Shown here: positions 24,631 to 32,258 of the stretch, in pieces
How positions within the stretch are numbered: position 1 is the first letter of the stretch
Layout: every line of letters begins with the position of its first letter
From: a virus
IMG/VR virus record: IMGVR_UViG_3300044620_001538
Coordinates: 1 to 34,027 of that record
Strand: one strand, 5' to 3'
DNA length: 34,027 nt
Position numbers and translations under genes: made by a program
Notes under the pieces: generated by a model
What the model was told of the DNA's origin: nothing
The model's database searches: none
Seen by the model: only the letters and a program-made list of their open reading frames with translations

Positions 24631-24649
24631 ATATATATTTAATAATATG
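24631..24649 (+). promoter_or_regulatory. Recurrent AT-rich start motif (copy 4)
   Basis: ATATATATTTAATAATATG runs into the ATG at 24647 after a 20-base gap. It shares an exact 15-mer with the motif at 20523-20537. Confidence 0.4.
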
Positions 24650-26851
24650 ATTAAGAAAGATAAAGTTTATGAATTAAAAATAGAAGAAGATGATGATTTA
24701 TCAGGTATTGATTCTATTTCCCTTGTTGATGAACCAGCAATTGAAGTTAATTGGATGTTTTTTAATAAAGTTAAACAAGAAGATTTTCACATTCCTGACG
24801 GAGAAGATGAATTGTATCTTGAAAAATTAATGAAATATGGTCAATCTGAGGAAGAATTTCTTGCTGAGGGATGGGAATTTGTAAAAGTAATTGAAAATGA
24901 AAAGGATCAATTTTATTCAACAAACCCAAATGATGATTCAAGATTAGATACTGATTATTATAGAGTTAGATTTAAATATGATTTATCACCAAACATATCA
25001 CAAAGTGCAATTATTCCAACCACAAGAAATTTCTGTAAAACTTTAATTCAACAAAATAGAGTTTGGAGAAATGAAGATATTGAAGCAATTACCAACGATT
25101 TTGGTGATAGTGCAAGAATGTGGAGAGGTGGATTTAATTGCAGACATAGATGGTTTCAAATTTTATATAAAAGAACAGGGGATATAATTAATAAATCTTC
25201 TGTAAATAAAGATAAAATAACAGGTCCATTAGGTGTTCCACTTCCTGGCACGCCAGATTTTGTACAACCAAATACTGTTACCAATAAAACTTTGGGTAAC
25301 CCATCACCTTCAACAATTAGGAATTTGGGTTTATCTAAGGAAAACTTTGCTAAAATATCAATTGACTACGATGACACATTATCTACTCAAAGAGGTAAGG
25401 ACTTAGCAAGAAGACTAATTAACGAAGGTAATGACCTTTATATTGTTACTAAAAGACGTAAAACAGAAAGTAATGATGTATATAGAGTAGCTAGAGAAAT
25501 TGGTATCCCACAGGATAAAGTGTTTTTTACACAAGGTCTACCTAAATGGAGAATATTAAAAGAGTTAAGAATCCAAAGACATATAGATAATAACCCTGAT
25601 GAAATTGCAGATATTAAAGAAAATGCACCATTAATCAGAGCGGATAAGTTTGAAATTGTTGCACCAAATGTTAATGTATATGGTTACCATACAAGATTTT
25701 TCCAAATCTGTCCTGGCGCACAAGCAACCTTTGAACATCTAATATCTATGGACAATGATGAGGATACTATCGGAATGATTAGAAGTGCGGCACAAGTTGC
25801 AGATAATGTATTTAGAATTGAGGATGAAGTAATTAAATCTGAATCTGCAACACAACATCAATATGAAGAAGCGGTAGTTTTGGTTGATGATTTTAAAGAT
25901 ATTATAAATGAAATAGATAAGATTAGTGGTATGGTACACGATGTATCATATATGGATGGTCATATTGAGAAAATTAGAGAATATCTAAAAGAGGATATGG
26001 GATATGACGTTGGTACAATTGGTGGTTTTGAAGACCCTAATATTAGAAAGAAGAAGAAAAAACAGAATATGGAAAGTTATTCTGACTATCCTGATTCAGT
26101 TAAGAACAATGCTAAGGCGGTACTTAAGTGGGTTGATGAGAATGGTTGGGGTGACTGTGGAACTGATGTGGGTAAACAACGTGCTAATCAACTTGCTAAT
26201 GGTGAACCAATATCAGAGGAAACAATCCAACGTATGTACTCATACCTATCACGTCACAAAGTAGATTTAGAATCTTCAAAGAGTTATGACGATGGTTGTG
26301 GTAAATTGATGTATGATAGTTGGGGTGGATTATCAGCACTTAGTTGGGCTGAATCAAAAGTTAATTCATTTGGAAAGAATAATATGTCACTTCAAAAGTT
26401 TGCAATTGATTCGGAAGAAAAAAGGGTGGTGATTGGACCAGCGATGGTTCCTGATTTAAAGATATATAGAAAAGACAAAGAGGGAAACCCATATCACGTT
26501 TATTTCAGTGCTGATACAATCAAGATGATTGCTGAGAAGTATATGAGAAACAAATATCTTGACAATAATGACGAGAATCACGATGGTACAGCTGTAAAGG
26601 ATGTATATGTGATAGAATCTTGGATTAAGGAAGATATGGAAGATAAATCAACCAAATATGGTTATGGTGAACTTCCAATAGGTACTTGGTTTGTATCAAT
26701 GAAAGTAAAAAATGACGATGTTTGGAACAAAGTAAAACAGGGTGAATTGAACGGATTTAGTGTTTCAGGTTACTTTGAAGAGGTTGCTGCATTCTGTAGA
26801 GAAGAGATGTTCCTTAAAAAAGTAGCTGAAATTATAAAAAATATAAAATAA
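24647..26851 (+). CDS. Multidomain head protein: HAD-like phosphatase domain plus XkdF-like capsid protease
   Basis: This 734-residue protein seems to merge several head functions. The N-terminus SISLVDEPAIEVNWMFF resembles XkdF-type head proteins. RMWRGGFNCRHRWF (about 158-171) resembles the end of a minor-head/morphogenesis domain. Residues 239-345 look like a HAD hydrolase: DYDDT (D240, D242, T244) fits the DxDxT catalytic loop, LYIVTKRR fits motif II, and HIDNNPDE fits the acidic motif IV. Residues ~481-572 (YPDSVKNNAKAVLKW ... WGGLSALSWAESKV) are a domain also seen in other phage head proteins. Residues 586-720 match the XkdF-like putative serine protease domain, with H645 and GFSVSG (703-708). 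It precedes scaffold and capsid genes, fitting prohead maturation. Confidence 0.7.
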   Translation: MIKKDKVYELKIEEDDDLSGIDSISLVDEPAIEVNWMFFNKVKQEDFHIPDGEDELYLEKLMKYGQSEEEFLAEGWEFVKVIENEKDQFYSTNPNDDSRLDTDYYRVRFKYDLSPNISQSAIIPTTRNFCKTLIQQNRVWRNEDIEAITNDFGDSARMWRGGFNCRHRWFQILYKRTGDIINKSSVNKDKITGPLGVPLPGTPDFVQPNTVTNKTLGNPSPSTIRNLGLSKENFAKISIDYDDTLSTQRGKDLARRLINEGNDLYIVTKRRKTESNDVYRVAREIGIPQDKVFFTQGLPKWRILKELRIQRHIDNNPDEIADIKENAPLIRADKFEIVAPNVNVYGYHTRFFQICPGAQATFEHLISMDNDEDTIGMIRSAAQVADNVFRIEDEVIKSESATQHQYEEAVVLVDDFKDIINEIDKISGMVHDVSYMDGHIEKIREYLKEDMGYDVGTIGGFEDPNIRKKKKKQNMESYSDYPDSVKNNAKAVLKWVDENGWGDCGTDVGKQRANQLANGEPISEETIQRMYSYLSRHKVDLESSKSYDDGCGKLMYDSWGGLSALSWAESKVNSFGKNNMSLQKFAIDSEEKRVVIGPAMVPDLKIYRKDKEGNPYHVYFSADTIKMIAEKYMRNKYLDNNDENHDGTAVKDVYVIESWIKEDMEDKSTKYGYGELPIGTWFVSMKVKNDDVWNKVKQGELNGFSVSGYFEEVAAFCREEMFLKKVAEIIKNIK

Positions 26852-26881
26852 TTTGGGAATATATATAAATTTCCATATTTA
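26852..26881 (+). promoter_or_regulatory. Candidate promoter for the scaffold-capsid unit
   Basis: TTTG (26852-26855) lies 18 bases before CATATTTA (26874-26881), close to the Bacteroidota TTTG/TAnnTTTG arrangement with two -7 mismatches. The gap of 69 bases ahead of the scaffold gene holds an A-rich leader, expected upstream of strongly expressed genes in this host group. Confidence 0.4.
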
Positions 26882-26920
26882 GAAGTAGAACAATAAATTA
26901 AAACAAAATAAAAACAGATT

Positions 26921-27673
26921 ATGTCTAATCCAAAAACAGCAATTAACGAAATTAAAAAGTTGATGGTGCAGTTTGGTTTTATAGCTGATGAACCTGTTTT
27001 AGCGTCTTTCAAACTTGAAGATAATACAATTATCCAAACTCCTAAATTAGAAGTTGGTAATAAGATTGTAAAAATCAATGAGTTATTTGAACAAGTGGCG
27101 TTAGAAGATGGTGAATATAGATTGCAGGAAAACTTTGCAATTACAGTTACTGGAAGCCAAATAGTTACAGTTAAAGAAATTTTCGTTAGTGCAAAATTAG
27201 AAGACGGTACAGAAGTAAAGGTTGAAGGTGACGCATTAGCAGAAGGTGCTAAGGTTGTTGTTATTACACCTGATGCTGAAATACCTGCACCAGATGGTGT
27301 TCACAAATTGGAAGATGGTACTGAAATTGAAACTAAAGATGGTATGATTGCATCAATCAAAGAAGCTATTTCTGATGAAATGGGTGAAGGTGAAGAAGAT
27401 GAAATGCCAGAAGGAGTTGACAGTGGAGCGCCAATTCAAATTGAATTAATGGATATGTTGAAAGAGTTTGTAAAGAAAATCTCTGAGAAAATGTATCAAA
27501 TGGAAGAAAAGATGGAAGCAATGAACAATGAGTTTAGTGCTTTCAAATCACAACCAGCAGGTAAGAAAATATCTGACGGTAAAACAGATTTTAATAAAGA
27601 ATTGTCAAATGCTGATTCTGCAGAAGAAAAAATTGCAGCAATTATGGCTATGAGAGAATCTAATAAAAAATAA
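26921..27673 (+). CDS. Scaffold-like protein with LEDG repeats
   Basis: This 250-residue acidic protein lies directly before the major capsid gene. The N-terminal half contains repeated beta-hairpin-like LED-G units (FKLEDNTII, VALEDGEYRL, AKLEDGTEV, HKLEDGTEI). The C-terminal part is a long Glu/Met/Lys helix (about 170-215), the usual coiled-coil pattern of scaffolding proteins, followed by a charged tail. Proteins with this build and position are common before the capsid gene in Bacteroidota phages. It likely guides prohead assembly and may be removed by the XkdF-like protease upstream. The role is inferred from context and composition. Confidence 0.65.
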   Translation: MSNPKTAINEIKKLMVQFGFIADEPVLASFKLEDNTIIQTPKLEVGNKIVKINELFEQVALEDGEYRLQENFAITVTGSQIVTVKEIFVSAKLEDGTEVKVEGDALAEGAKVVVITPDAEIPAPDGVHKLEDGTEIETKDGMIASIKEAISDEMGEGEEDEMPEGVDSGAPIQIELMDMLKEFVKKISEKMYQMEEKMEAMNNEFSAFKSQPAGKKISDGKTDFNKELSNADSAEEKIAAIMAMRESNKK

Positions 27674-27700
27674 TTAAAAAAAATAAAATTTAAACGAATT

Positions 27701-28666
27701 ATGAAAGTTTATTCAAAAGACGAATTTAGTTACGTAGTATCCAGCATTACTGGTTTTACTGACCAAAGTTCACAAGAAATTGTAGCAAAAGCGTTAATCG
27801 GAGCTACAACCCCCGCAAATACCACAGTTAAATTAGGTATCCGTGGTACACAACAAGTACAATTGTTAAACTCAGCACCATCTTTCCAATCAGGAGCTTG
27901 TGGATGGGATGCAAGTGGTACAACAACATTTACTCAAGTATCTTTATCTTCTCAACACGAGAAAGTAAACGAAGAATTATGTTTCCAACAACTTTGGGAT
28001 ACATACCAATCATTATTGTTACCTCCAGGTCAAGATCCTGAAACAGTACCTTTCTTAAATCAAATCATTGATTTAAAAGTTAAGCAAATTCAACAAAGAA
28101 TTGAAACTAAATTATGGACAGCAACTACAGCAGGTGGTGATGCATTCAATGGTTTCAACACTTTAATTGCAACAGGTCAAACTTCAGTTGCTAACTCAAG
28201 TGGTACTACATTCTCATCTACAGCAGCTTATGGTGTATCTGGTAACCCAATCACAGAAGTAGACAAATTAATCTCTTCATTATCTGATGATGCTTTAGCA
28301 TTTGACGATTTAGTAGTGTTTATGTCTTACTCTAACTTCCGTCTTTACAATCAAGCATTAGTTAGAGCTAACTTCTTCCAAAACTACATTGGTACAACTA
28401 ACGTTACAAACAATATGAGTGCAGTGCACCCATCTACTAACGTTAAAGTATTACCAACATTAGGATTGGCAGGTAGTGGTAAAGTTGTTATTGGACCTGC
28501 CTCTTATATGTTCTGCGGATTTGACTTAATGTCAGACCACGAGAAGATGGATGCATTCTGGTCAAGAGATTTTGATGTGTTGAAAATCAGAGCTAACTAC
28601 TCTTACTCAGCAGCTATCGCAGCATTCTCAGGAACTAACTACTTCGCAACTAACAACGTAGCATAG
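27701..28666 (+). CDS. Major capsid protein (HK97-like fold)
   Basis: This 321-residue protein is the likely shell subunit. It has an N-terminal arm, then a long helix rich in Lys/Gln (IDLKVKQIQQRIETKLW, the HK97 spine helix). An Asp/Phe-rich stretch (LAFDDLVVFMSYSNFRLYNQ) and a C-terminal segment FDVLKIRANYSYSAAIAAF of the A-domain type complete the fold. Length fits small HK97-type capsid proteins. It follows the scaffold gene after an A-rich 27-base leader and is followed at once by a terminator, as expected for a very abundant product. Codon use also looks more optimised (more C-ending codons such as TTC and AAC) than in neighbouring genes. Confidence 0.85.
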   Translation: MKVYSKDEFSYVVSSITGFTDQSSQEIVAKALIGATTPANTTVKLGIRGTQQVQLLNSAPSFQSGACGWDASGTTTFTQVSLSSQHEKVNEELCFQQLWDTYQSLLLPPGQDPETVPFLNQIIDLKVKQIQQRIETKLWTATTAGGDAFNGFNTLIATGQTSVANSSGTTFSSTAAYGVSGNPITEVDKLISSLSDDALAFDDLVVFMSYSNFRLYNQALVRANFFQNYIGTTNVTNNMSAVHPSTNVKVLPTLGLAGSGKVVIGPASYMFCGFDLMSDHEKMDAFWSRDFDVLKIRANYSYSAAIAAFSGTNYFATNNVA

Positions 28667-28683
28667 TAAAATTATAAAAAAAC

Positions 28684-28710
28684 TGAGGGGTGAAAGTCCC
28701 CTCATATTTA
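28684..28710 (+). terminator. Terminator after the major capsid gene
   Basis: A 7-bp stem (TGAGGGG at 28684-28690 with CCCCTCA at 28698-28704) closes a 7-base loop and is followed by ATTT. The downstream U tract is short, so termination may be partial, which would lower expression of the next gene relative to capsid. Confidence 0.65.
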
Positions 28711-28743
28711 AAAAATAAACTAAAAAAATTAATTTAATACAAT

Positions 28744-29313
28744 ATGAGTTGTTTTATATCCACAGGAGCCGCATTAGGATGTTCTGATTCAATCGGTGGT
28801 GTGAAAAAAATATACGTAGCAGGACAATCAGGTTTTACATCTGGTTACACTTACAATTCTGATAGTGCTATCACAGGTGCTACAGATAGTGGTGACGTTA
28901 CTTACTATGGTTTTGAATTGAAGAGAAACACAAGTTCACTTGTACAAAATACTACTAAGTCATATGAAAATGGCACCGTGTATTGGGAACAAGTTTTAAC
29001 TGCAGTTTTATTCAAGTATGACCAAGAAAAGAGAAACCAATTGAAAGTATTGGGACAAAACGATAATTTACAGATTTTAGTAATTGACCAAAATGACGTA
29101 GTTTACGTAATTGGTCAAGTAAACTATTCTTACTTATCAGGAGGTTCAGCTGGAACTGGTTTAGCTTTAGGTGACAGAAACGGATTTGAGATGATTTTTA
29201 CGGCACAAGAAAATGAGCCAGCAAGAGTGTTAGAAGCTCCAGCAGGTTACACAGGTACAACACCAGAAGCATTGATTGCGGCTGTATTTACACAATCTAC
29301 AATCGTAGGATAA
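28744..29313 (+). CDS. Major tail tube protein, putative
   Basis: This 189-residue protein starts MSCFISTGAALGCSDSIGGVKKIY, a form I associate with tail-tube-like structural proteins of Bacteroidota phages. The middle has alternating strands and the segment KYDQEKRNQLKVLGQND. The C-terminal LALGDRNGFEMIFTAQENEPA is typical of this set. It is located between terminators right after the capsid gene, which fits a very abundant virion protein; the tube is the expected second most abundant. The assignment is from pattern and position, not a proven fold. Confidence 0.6.
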   Translation: MSCFISTGAALGCSDSIGGVKKIYVAGQSGFTSGYTYNSDSAITGATDSGDVTYYGFELKRNTSSLVQNTTKSYENGTVYWEQVLTAVLFKYDQEKRNQLKVLGQNDNLQILVIDQNDVVYVIGQVNYSYLSGGSAGTGLALGDRNGFEMIFTAQENEPARVLEAPAGYTGTTPEALIAAVFTQSTIVG

Positions 29314-29351
29314 TATTCGGTTTTAGGACCATTTCTATATTCTCTAAAAGG

Positions 29352-29379
29352 AAAAGGGGACTTATGTCCCTTTTTTTTT
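29352..29379 (+). terminator. Strong intrinsic terminator after tail-tube gene
   Basis: The stem AAAAGGGGAC (29352-29361) pairs with GTCCCTTTTT (29366-29375), with one G-U pair and a TTAT loop. It runs straight into nine T (29371-29379). This is the clearest rho-independent terminator in the window. Confidence 0.85.
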
Positions 29380-29406
29380 ATGCAATACCCTTTCGCTTAA
29401 GTTTTT

Positions 29407-29419
29407 TTTATATTTAGTA
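29407..29419 (+). promoter_or_regulatory. Recurrent AT-rich motif (copy 5)
   Basis: TTTATATTTAGTA lies 16 bases before the ATG at 29436 and just downstream of the strong terminator. This is the place where a promoter restarting transcription of the portal unit would be needed. Confidence 0.4.
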
Positions 29420-29435
29420 TATATAGACCCATCAT

Positions 29436-29807
29436 ATGATTATAATGAATAAAGGACAGGTGAATGAATTGGTGTTAAACATCAATAACAATTCACGTAC
29501 CGATTTTAGTGGATATACACTTACATTCTTACATATTCTATCTCAAGAAGAAAAATCATATACGATTAGTATCTCTAATCCAGCACAATTTGGTGAGAAT
29601 ATTAGATATTGTGAGATTGTATTAGACCTAACAACTAATGATTTAAATTATGAAGGACAATACCAATTAAAAATATATGGTAATGGTACTCAATTGGTTT
29701 ATACAGGGATGGTACGTTTAAATGGTACAACCGAACAGGGTAACGACTTTGTTACTTATGTATCACCTGACGAGGATAATAGTAATTACATATATATACA
29801 AGAATAA
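29436..29807 (+). CDS. Small beta-sandwich-like structural protein, hypothetical
   Basis: This 123-residue protein has a repeated strand pattern (MNKGQVNELVLNINNNSR, SGYTLTFLHILSQEEKSYTI, GQYQLKIYGNGTQLVYTGMV). It is like small Bacteroidota phage proteins that begin M-I-x-x-N-K-G-Q and precede portal or neck genes. The ATG at 29445 is an alternative start. It leads the unit containing portal and connector, two bases before the portal gene. A head decoration or fibre-anchor role is possible but unproven. Confidence 0.65.
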   Translation: MIIMNKGQVNELVLNINNNSRTDFSGYTLTFLHILSQEEKSYTISISNPAQFGENIRYCEIVLDLTTNDLNYEGQYQLKIYGNGTQLVYTGMVRLNGTTEQGNDFVTYVSPDEDNSNYIYIQE

Positions 29808-29809
29808 TT

Positions 29810-30973
29810 ATGAGTGAACAAAAACAAAAATACCAATTAGGTAGAGTAAATTTTACACAAGAACCATTATTACCAATCTTTTCGGAGGTTTTTAATAACA
29901 AGGACTTTGTATTTTACGGAGAAAATAACCTAATGCCACAATATCTTATTTCAAGATATAATAACTGTGCAATACACAAAGCAATTGTAACCTCAAAGAA
30001 GGAACAGATTATGGGTGATGGTATTGTATCATTAAACAACCCAATGGCTACAGTTAATTTTATTAACGAAAGTGAAAATGTTTCAGAGGTTATGGCCAAA
30101 TGTGCATTGGACTTAGTATTATTCGGTGGGTTTTCATTAAATGTTATTTGGTCAAAAGATAAAAAATCAATTGCTGAAATATATCATTTAGATTTTAGTA
30201 GAATCCGTTCAGGTAAAATTAATCCTGAGAAAGATAAAGTAGAGAAATATTACTATTCAGCCGATTGGTCAAATATTAAGAAATTCCCTGTAACATCATA
30301 TGCTTCTTTTTCAACTGAAGAATCAGACCCATCTCAAATATTCTATTATAAATCATATTCACCATCTCAGTCATACTATCCACATCCTGATTATTCAGGT
30401 GGTTTGGCATCAATTGAGATTGATGTAAACATTAAAGAGTTTCACGCAAACAATCTAAAGAATGGTATGTTACCATCACTTTGGATTAATATGAATAATG
30501 GTATCCCTGGCGATGAAGAACAACGTTTGGTTACACGTGCATTGGAATCACAGTTTACATCTGTAAACAACGCAGGTCGTCCAATCATTTCATTCAACGA
30601 AAGTAAGGAATTATCACCTGAAATTACACAGATTCAAACATCAGGTAATGACCAATATTATCAAGCAATTTATGACGATATAATCCGTTCAATTTTGTCA
30701 GCACATAGAATATCATCAGGTGAACTATTTGGTATCAGTACAGCAAACAAATTGGGGTCTAAAGACGAGATTAATACTCACATTGAGTACGTTCGTAAAA
30801 CGGTTATTATGCCATATCAAAAACAATTACTATCAGTATTTGATAAATTGGTAAGTATGAAATTCCAAAGACCTACATCGTTTGAAATTAAACCTCTATC
30901 TATATATGAAGCTGGTGATATTGTAGAACAACCATTAGTAGAGAATAAACCAGAAACCCCAACACAAGTATAA
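29810..30973 (+). CDS. Portal protein
   Basis: This 387-residue protein forms the dodecameric portal through which DNA enters and leaves the head. The N-terminal LPIFSEVFNNKDFVFYG and ENNLMPQYLISRYNN, followed by CAIHKAIVTSKKEQIMGDGI, match the usual portal wing start (core helix and I-x-x-K-x-x-x-x-x-G). Later, FHANNLKNGMLPSLWI, a PII-type strand before the clip, and QAIYDDIIRSILSAHRISSGELFGI form the stem/crown region found in HK97- and Bacteroidota-type portals. Length is typical. It is followed one base later by the connector gene. Its placement after the capsid and far from terminase is unusual. Confidence 0.85.
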   Translation: MSEQKQKYQLGRVNFTQEPLLPIFSEVFNNKDFVFYGENNLMPQYLISRYNNCAIHKAIVTSKKEQIMGDGIVSLNNPMATVNFINESENVSEVMAKCALDLVLFGGFSLNVIWSKDKKSIAEIYHLDFSRIRSGKINPEKDKVEKYYYSADWSNIKKFPVTSYASFSTEESDPSQIFYYKSYSPSQSYYPHPDYSGGLASIEIDVNIKEFHANNLKNGMLPSLWINMNNGIPGDEEQRLVTRALESQFTSVNNAGRPIISFNESKELSPEITQIQTSGNDQYYQAIYDDIIRSILSAHRISSGELFGISTANKLGSKDEINTHIEYVRKTVIMPYQKQLLSVFDKLVSMKFQRPTSFEIKPLSIYEAGDIVEQPLVENKPETPTQV

Positions 30974-30974
30974 T

Positions 30975-31604
30975 ATGGCTAATAAATTATTAATATCAGA
31001 AAATAAATTAAAGGCGTTTACCAATATTAACAAGAATGTTGATATGGATACAATTCGTGCAGAAATAGGTATTGCACAGGATTTGCACTTACAGCCACTA
31101 TTAGGAACTTTATTTTATGACCATTTGTTAGACCAAATATCTGCAACGGGTAATACTTTTAACGCACAAGAATTAATCTTGGTTAATGATTATATTGCTG
31201 ACTATTTGATTCAAACTGCATATTACGAGATGATACCACATCTTCACGTGAGAACAATGAACGTAGGATTAGTTAAACCAGGTGCGGTTGATGGCGGTAG
31301 AGATGGTGTGGATATTGAAACAATGAAGTATTTACGTACTATTCAAAAACAACGTGCTGATTTTTATATGATGAGATTGCAAGATTATCTTATCACAGGA
31401 CGTGGTCAAAATCAATTCCCTCAATATAATTCACAATCAACAATTGATGGTATGATTGCAAATCGCAGCGAAAAATACAACTCACCAATTTACTTAAACC
31501 ACACATCAAGATATGGTTATAGTTTAGCACAGACAATGAGAAACCTACAAGTTTACTCAGATCAAGCACACTATAATCCACCTTGTATGGATTGTGGATA
31601 CTAA
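30975..31604 (+). CDS. Head-tail connector protein (DUF6712-like)
   Basis: This 209-residue mostly helical protein directly follows the portal. Segments MDTIRAEIGIAQDLHLQPLLGTLFYDHL, QELILVNDYIADYLIQTAYYEMIPHLHVRTMNVGL and MKYLRTIQKQRADFYMMRLQ (each broken here only by normal variation) follow the pattern of the DUF6712 connector/adaptor family of Bacteroidota phages, where a helical bundle extends the portal ring. The C-terminus ends with a Cys-x-x-Cys (CMDC), which is unusual but may be incidental. It would dock the tail to the head with the gp10-like neck protein encoded at 13506-14141. Confidence 0.7.
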   Translation: MANKLLISENKLKAFTNINKNVDMDTIRAEIGIAQDLHLQPLLGTLFYDHLLDQISATGNTFNAQELILVNDYIADYLIQTAYYEMIPHLHVRTMNVGLVKPGAVDGGRDGVDIETMKYLRTIQKQRADFYMMRLQDYLITGRGQNQFPQYNSQSTIDGMIANRSEKYNSPIYLNHTSRYGYSLAQTMRNLQVYSDQAHYNPPCMDCGY

Positions 31605-31680: not shown

Positions 31681-31941
31681 ATGAACACAGAACTATTATT
31701 AGTTATATCAAATGCATTAACAGGTATTGCAGCATTCTTCGTTGGTAAAAGACGTAGTGATGCTGAAACTGATAATCAAGTACTTAGAAATTTAGAATTA
31801 AGTATTGGTATATACGTAAAGATAATTGAAGACCTTAAGACGGAAATACAATCTTTAAATCTAAAAGTTCAAGACCTTGAAACAAAGGTTGAGAATTTAA
31901 TGAATGAGAATAAAAAACTTAAAAAATACAACGGACTATGA
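31681..31941 (+). CDS. Membrane-anchored coiled-coil protein (holin/spanin-like candidate)
   Basis: This 86-residue protein has an N-terminal hydrophobic segment (about residues 4-21, LLLVISNALTGIAAFFVG), then a charged KRR stop-transfer stretch. A long heptad-patterned coiled coil fills the rest (LKTEIQSLNLKVQDLETKVENL). This layout is common in small phage membrane proteins encoded between structural and lysis genes. A role in lysis or envelope attachment is inference; no endolysin is visible here. It overlaps the next gene by four bases (ATGA). Confidence 0.6.
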   Translation: MNTELLLVISNALTGIAAFFVGKRRSDAETDNQVLRNLELSIGIYVKIIEDLKTEIQSLNLKVQDLETKVENLMNENKKLKKYNGL

Positions 31942-32258
31942 ATTTAGAAAACATTATAAAACTCAGATTTAAACTATCTGATGTTAAGAAACCAAAAAAG
32001 ATGGCAGAAGATGAAGGTCTTGAAGGTGCGTGTTGGGAAGGATATGAACCAATTGGAATGAAAGAATTAGATGGTCGTATGGTACCAAATTGTGTTCCCA
32101 TTGAAGCAAATAAAGTTAAAGAAGGTTTTCCAATTCCATCACCATCAGATGAAGATGAGGACAAATATATCGGTAGATGTATTAGTGCAATTGTTGGTGA
32201 ATATCCTGAGGAAGGACAAGCATACGCTGTATGTAAATCTAAATGGGATGAGAAGTAG
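31938..32258 (+). CDS. Small Cys-containing phage protein with PNCVP and CxxxxxxEYP motifs
   Basis: This 106-residue acidic protein contains two familiar short motifs. EGACWEGYEPIGMKELDGR leads into VPNCVP (about residues 30-53), and CISAIVGEYPEEGQAYAVCK (about 81-100) follows. The second form (Cys, ~6 residues, E-G/E-Y-P-E-E-Q-A-x-A-x-C) is seen as a short domain in many phage head or protease proteins. I know no established function for either motif. It is the last gene of the rightward block, closed by the bidirectional terminator that follows. Confidence 0.6.
   Translation: MNLENIIKLRFKLSDVKKPKKMAEDEGLEGACWEGYEPIGMKELDGRMVPNCVPIEANKVKEGFPIPSPSDEDEDKYIGRCISAIVGEYPEEGQAYAVCKSKWDEK

Follow-up and report, generated by a model that had tools for sequence, protein, structure and literature searches.

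What is a phosphatase of the HAD type doing inside a phage protein that matures the head? The question arises from a 34,027-nucleotide stretch of viral DNA (IMG/VR record IMGVR_UViG_3300044620_001538), referred to here as the window, in which an open reading frame on the + strand (positions 24647 to 26851 including the stop codon, 734 amino acids) encodes a modular XkdF-type capsid-maturation protease. The preliminary description of this DNA had placed a HAD domain within the protein, together with XkdF-like protease and head-morphogenesis-like segments. The domain within a capsid protease is borne out by PHROG matches, homologues, the predicted fold and the Pfam family PF14550, whereas the head-morphogenesis-like segment did not stand: Pfam finds no MuF domain there, and residues 92–179 are portal-like instead.

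The XkdF-type protein and its phosphatase module

The family PF14550 (Peptidase_S78_2, XkdF) matches residues 585–710 with an E-value of 1.5e-19 and 70.6 bits, above the gathering cut-off of 24, and a full-length homologue, L001, is 95% identical. The protease core extends over residues 585–732 (26399–26842; this and all other features are on the + strand), with H645 and S705, neither of which varies in alignment A4. At the other end of the protein, the N module (residues 1–216, 24647–25294) joins the XkdF N-terminal segment to a piece that resembles the C-terminus of portal proteins and carries GGFNCRHRW. The portal-like piece, residues 92–179, corresponds to the C-terminus of the portal family phrog_33693 (E 2e-5), and the portal of Nonlabens phage P12024L bears the same piece at its C-terminus. 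In two relatives (L024 and L104) the N module is shortened to residues 1–45. A reading of this module as MuF was dropped, as neither residues 1–228 (E 0.1) nor the whole protein (E 10) gave a match to PF04233 or PF06152.

In the full-length model the protein looks like beads on a string. A linker predicted as disordered (residues 178–233, 25178–25345, pLDDT below 50) leads into the HAD module (residues 236–335, 25352–25651), which is followed by M2, a module that is helical in the model (residues 345–448, 25679–25990). M2 is optional, being present or missing irrespective of the HAD. Then come a disordered lysine-rich linker, GYDVGTIGG...KKKKK (residues 449–475, 25991–26071), also recognised in relatives, the PHROG 2859 module (residues 476–575, 26072–26371; phrog_2859, E 3e-18, aligned at residues 481–578 in the PHROG search) and the protease. 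The linker of the form GYDV..GGY.D..I.KKKKK stands before the PHROG 2859 module in some relatives and after it in others (compare the window, L004, L023 and L027), and this difference in position indicates that the linkers are mobile as well. Many modules, both in the window (26060–26400) and in relatives, open with an internal methionine (NMESYSDYPD, NMSLQKFA), which is suggestive of fused genes or internal starts. Searched as a whole, the protein gave chance matches only against the PDB (phmmer) and no relative among genome contigs.

The motifs DYDDT, LYIVTKRR and HIDNNPDE had been reported in this order, and they lie at residues 240, 264 and 312, inside the region 25330–25690 assigned to the domain. 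Motif I comprises residues 240–244 (25364–25378) with D240 and D242, motif II residues 264–271 (25436–25459) with T268 and R270, and motif IV residues 312–319 (25580–25603) with D314 and N315, while K300 (25544–25546) is the lysine of motif III. Two small phage protein families, PHROG 4919 (E 4e-8) and PHROG 4256 (E 7e-6), match residues 235–321, and the catalytic columns are kept in 20 homologous domains 47–80% identical to that of the window. The structure prediction that had been proposed as a check, done with AlphaFold2 on residues 236–335 and a homologue alignment, returned the Rossmannoid core (pLDDT 90.5, pTM 0.84): a capless fold of five strands alternating with helices. Foldseek ranked the class B acid phosphatase AphA as the top PDB match (E 1e-4), and the VIA-align Z scores were 11.8 for the T4 Pnkp phosphatase, 11.1 for phosphoserine phosphatase, 11.0 for Pnkp1 and 10.3 for MDP-1. 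A universal stress protein reached 12.0, level with the true HADs, so the fold alone gives no function; fold and active-site motifs together settle the HAD assignment. HADs of jumbo phages involved in RNA repair and the Pnkp 3′-phosphatase of T4 were already known (PMC7824862). The module of the window shares with the T4 enzyme the HAD core and a T-x-R motif II, and counts it among its best HAD fold matches, but the two are only 12–13% identical and the kinase domain is absent from the window module.

Among 91 distinct homologous HAD domains, D240, K300 and H312 are present in all, and D242, T268 and R270 in 90 each, with L297 as the sole exception; position 268 is a serine in the one domain without threonine. 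Since residue 244 is T or V in all 91, the catalytic DxDxT is intact, as originally described, and the two aspartates D240 and D242, whose variability would have spoken against the assignment, are constant or nearly so. D314 occurs in 90 domains, the exception being L160, a distant huge-phage homologue perhaps misaligned at that column; the following asparagine, N315, occurs in 89, at a place where the superfamily pattern for motif IV is an acidic pair (DD, GDxxxD or GDxxxxD), and D318 is variable. Because the strings of motifs I and IV served as search patterns for collecting the domains, it is T268, R270 and K300 that give an unbiased count. The domains differ at about half their positions, yet the catalytic residues hold constant in some 90 of 91. 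The copy of L297 (3501–5969) has the changes D242N and R270L, adjoins a histidine phosphatase module and is probably a decayed HAD. Taken together, alignment and model describe a capless mini-phosphatase with an intact predicted active site, apparently active.

As for its substrate, NCBIfam gave nothing more than scattered weak HAD-type and Rossmann matches. Weak similarity to the cytosolic 5′-nucleotidase family PF06189 appears in 9 of 20 HAD members (best E 1.2e-6), and there is likewise a weak match to a phage nucleotidase PHROG. Membership of the window HAD in PF06189 was dropped, as its score of 21.5 bits falls below the gathering cut-off of 28.2.

A variable slot in front of the protease core

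The survey took in 78 viral contigs with relatives of the window's protein and was extended by further searches. Both ends, the XkdF N-terminus and protease core, are retained in the relatives, and the intervening stretch behaves as a variable slot, filled by about a dozen kinds of modules in dozens of combinations. Some 70 module orders occur among 187 distinct ORFs with a protease domain, some of them incomplete, and the commonest architecture (31 of the 187) is a plain one with no other recognised module. The cultured Nonlabens phage P12024L is of this plain kind: its protein P12024L_01 has the same PF14550 core with the conserved histidine and serine and the same N-terminal segment, but there the N-terminus directly joins the protease, whereas about 540 residues, the HAD among them, lie between the two in the window.

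The search for other XkdF-type proteins with the same insertion, suggested in the preliminary description, yielded 36 fusions of the HAD to the XkdF protease. The HAD was present in 8 of 60 complete relatives retrieved through the N module and in none of 65 retrieved through the protease. On these comparisons, it is an optional, exchangeable cassette and no fixed part of the XkdF head protein. Four UniProt entries from uncultured Caudovirales phages (A0A6J7WLI9, A0A6J7WEB6, A0A6J5NSI2 and A0A6J5N6Z6) carry the same HAD module at 36–58% identity, despite being annotated as 'Phage-like element PBSX protein, XkdF' and nothing else. The fusion is thus present in UniProt but unremarked, and we found no discussion of it in the open-access literature. 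HADs in phages, XkdF proteases, domain mosaicism and toxin-bearing MuF proteins are, each on its own, already known. Mosaicism of protein domains is general in phages, with HAD-related domains among those giving a signal (PMC10684548); in a term search of that paper, protease, portal and MuF did not come up. More broadly, XkdF, protease, portal and capsid are single annotation names that cover many unrelated domains, and are misleading to that extent.

Other occupants of the slot include a second phosphatase superfamily, as L104 holds a histidine phosphatase (His_Phos_1, PF00300, E 4e-19), which adjoins the HAD within the same slot in L104, L297 and L103. L184 (2160–3899) presents at residues 47–345 a slot insert of 299 amino acids with cysteine- and histidine-bearing stretches (YCFQVAQFLFYAVGG, HWYIQH).

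The protease tree calls for 15 changes in HAD presence, of which at least four are forced by well-supported branches, and HAD presence is no more clustered than with shuffled labels. Exchange is also visible between close relatives. Between the window and L001, the HAD block forms a patch of 79% identity in an otherwise 95% identical pair, with a dS of 0.55, where the immediate flanks on either side have about 0.1, and a dN/dS of about 0.28. The raised dS together with this ratio suggests that a HAD allele has been exchanged and maintained under purifying selection, and for the same reason positive selection as a cause of the patch was dropped. In the protease core of this pair dS is also raised (0.45), with dN at just 0.03, so exchange was not limited to the HAD. 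Close relatives with the HAD (window and L001) and without it (L003) amount to a natural swap experiment.

Comparison of L016 with L021 delimits a cassette bounded by two KF sites (NKEKF and VEAIKF), directly before the GYDVG linker. The dipeptide [KQ]F is enriched at module junctions with an odds ratio of 6.9, a figure to be read with the non-independence of the sequences in mind and with KF also ending the last strand of the HAD. That the enrichment marks cleavage sites is a hypothesis; it could instead mark recombination or the ends of domains.

Other homes of the phosphatase

In total, 103 ORFs bearing the HAD were collected, and besides the 36 fusions there are 67 without an XkdF protease domain. 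Of the latter, 44 have a terL-like gene no more than 2.5 kb away, and in 41 of these cases the HAD gene is the upstream one (Pfam confirmed five of these terL genes). A further 13–14 HADs follow an SRC..AIC..W module in a late gene. The HAD thus has three homes: the fusion to the capsid protease, the late-gene module protein and a position immediately preceding the large terminase gene. Exactly one copy was found in each of 35 HAD-positive records tested, and none of 14 records with a HAD-less protease slot had a HAD elsewhere, counts that refer to the sequence present, as IMG/VR records may be fragments. Five changes of home suffice on the HAD tree, which indicates that switching homes is rare, though presence in the slot is often gained or lost. 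HADs of this family also occur as standalone genes in huge phages, Flavobacterium elemo phages and one Elizabethkingia phage.

A second type of protease also bears the HAD. In L155 (4830–6347), a segment MPVEQC-HAD-PHROG2859 is joined to an HK97-type prohead protease (PF04586, Peptidase_S78, E 3e-19), and the fusion gene stands between the portal and HK97 capsid genes; by its sequence, this protease belongs to a family unrelated to XkdF. The neighbouring module PHROG 2859 is found in a portal protein (L152) and in a haloarchaeal portal-MuF fusion (HRTV-28), as well as at the N-terminus of protease-MCP fusions of Roseobacter and Synechococcus phages. Going by these gene comparisons, the company common to the HAD and its neighbour modules is that of head proteins.

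The window itself has a second module-carrier gene (31938–32258), in synteny with the site where phages of the L055/L068 type carry the SRC module plus HAD. This small ORF contains a CWEG module (CWEGYEPIGMK..PNCVP) and an SRC/GRC..AVC..W module, both of them mobile and Cys-containing.

Possible roles in head assembly

Sequence and prediction establish the fold, the conserved active site, the organisation in cassettes, their exchange and the fusion to two head-protease families, and from there we favour, at a probability of roughly one half, the reading that the capless mini-phosphatase is a slot module of the XkdF protease, carried into the procapsid and maybe freed for ejection with the DNA. 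Small modules from a shared set, connected by disordered linkers, fill the slot ahead of the protease core, and the HAD would enter the procapsid along with the protease, an entry that we infer from its carrier being a prohead protease. The protease may then cut the linkers, leaving a freed HAD that would stay in the virion and exit with the DNA. Its likeliest substrate would be a phosphate on a nucleotide or a polynucleotide end, a leaning that comes from the sub-threshold PF06189 matches, the phage nucleotidase PHROG and the Pnkp-type fold. There are points against this reading: HAD genes beside the terminase need not encode virion proteins, the low counts among complete relatives make the HAD dispensable, and the L297 copy has lost D242 and R270. 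The arrangement suggests, short of proof, that accessory enzymes are incorporated by phages into their head-maturation protein, and a role of the HAD in packaging or in the virion is plausible from its gene contexts.

The main rival is a packaging role beside the terminase, in which the HAD would trim phosphates of DNA ends or nucleotides near the terminase and portal during head filling, and would never reach the host. Protease fusion and a gene next to the terminase would then be two routes to the same packaging machine, as would fit with the standalone copies adjoining the terminase, the fusions to two prohead protease families and the single copy per genome in alternative homes. The terminase already leaves ligatable DNA ends, however, so it is not obvious why a phosphatase would be needed; most relatives do without the HAD, and with just five changes of home on the HAD tree the association with terL may track lineage. 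All considered, we regard this packaging role as possible but doubtful. Rather unlikely, in our opinion, is a free-riding nucleotidase or phosphatase gene that recombined into a tolerant slot and acts in the cytoplasm with no role in the virion. The separate genes of the same family in huge, Flavobacterium elemo and Elizabethkingia phages, and a slot that accepts many inserts, would agree with it, but against it stand the repeated combination of the HAD, in these phages, with modules that elsewhere belong to portal, protease and MCP proteins, and its fusion to two unrelated capsid proteases. A non-enzymatic use of the fold, serving the prohead core as structural spacer or for binding, could appeal to the degenerate copy of L297 and to the lack of a recognisable enzyme family in most other slot modules. 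The invariant active site, conserved in about 90 of 91 divergent domains and including T268 and K300, which lay outside the search patterns, makes such a use highly improbable.

A broader extension of the favoured reading, which we put forward tentatively and do not expect to hold in full, would see the whole slot as a payload bay: the protease would take exchangeable enzymes into the head and free them by cutting at linker sites, for ejection with the DNA and action in the opening minutes of infection. The cargo would include the HAD phosphatase, the histidine phosphatase and metal-binding modules. If the slot does deliver enzymes, searches for virion-borne effectors of aquatic phages would gain a new target. 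A similar case is offered by the MuF polymorphic toxins of temperate phages, where a head protein bears additional, variable domains, which the virion may carry along (PMC5576092). The carrier in the window differs in being a protease with internal modules, whereas those of MuF proteins are C-terminal.

The host would presumably be an aquatic member of the Bacteroidota, by analogy with cultured relatives that infect Nonlabens, Flavobacterium and Elizabethkingia. Along positions 24647–31604, the protease is followed by a small acidic protein, a capsid-like protein and then, downstream, the portal, an order that departs from the usual portal-protease-capsid. Just upstream of the terminase genes, the region 1604–2149 encodes a sequence that, judged by eye, is methyltransferase-like (VLDLGCG...DIVKMDIEGSE).
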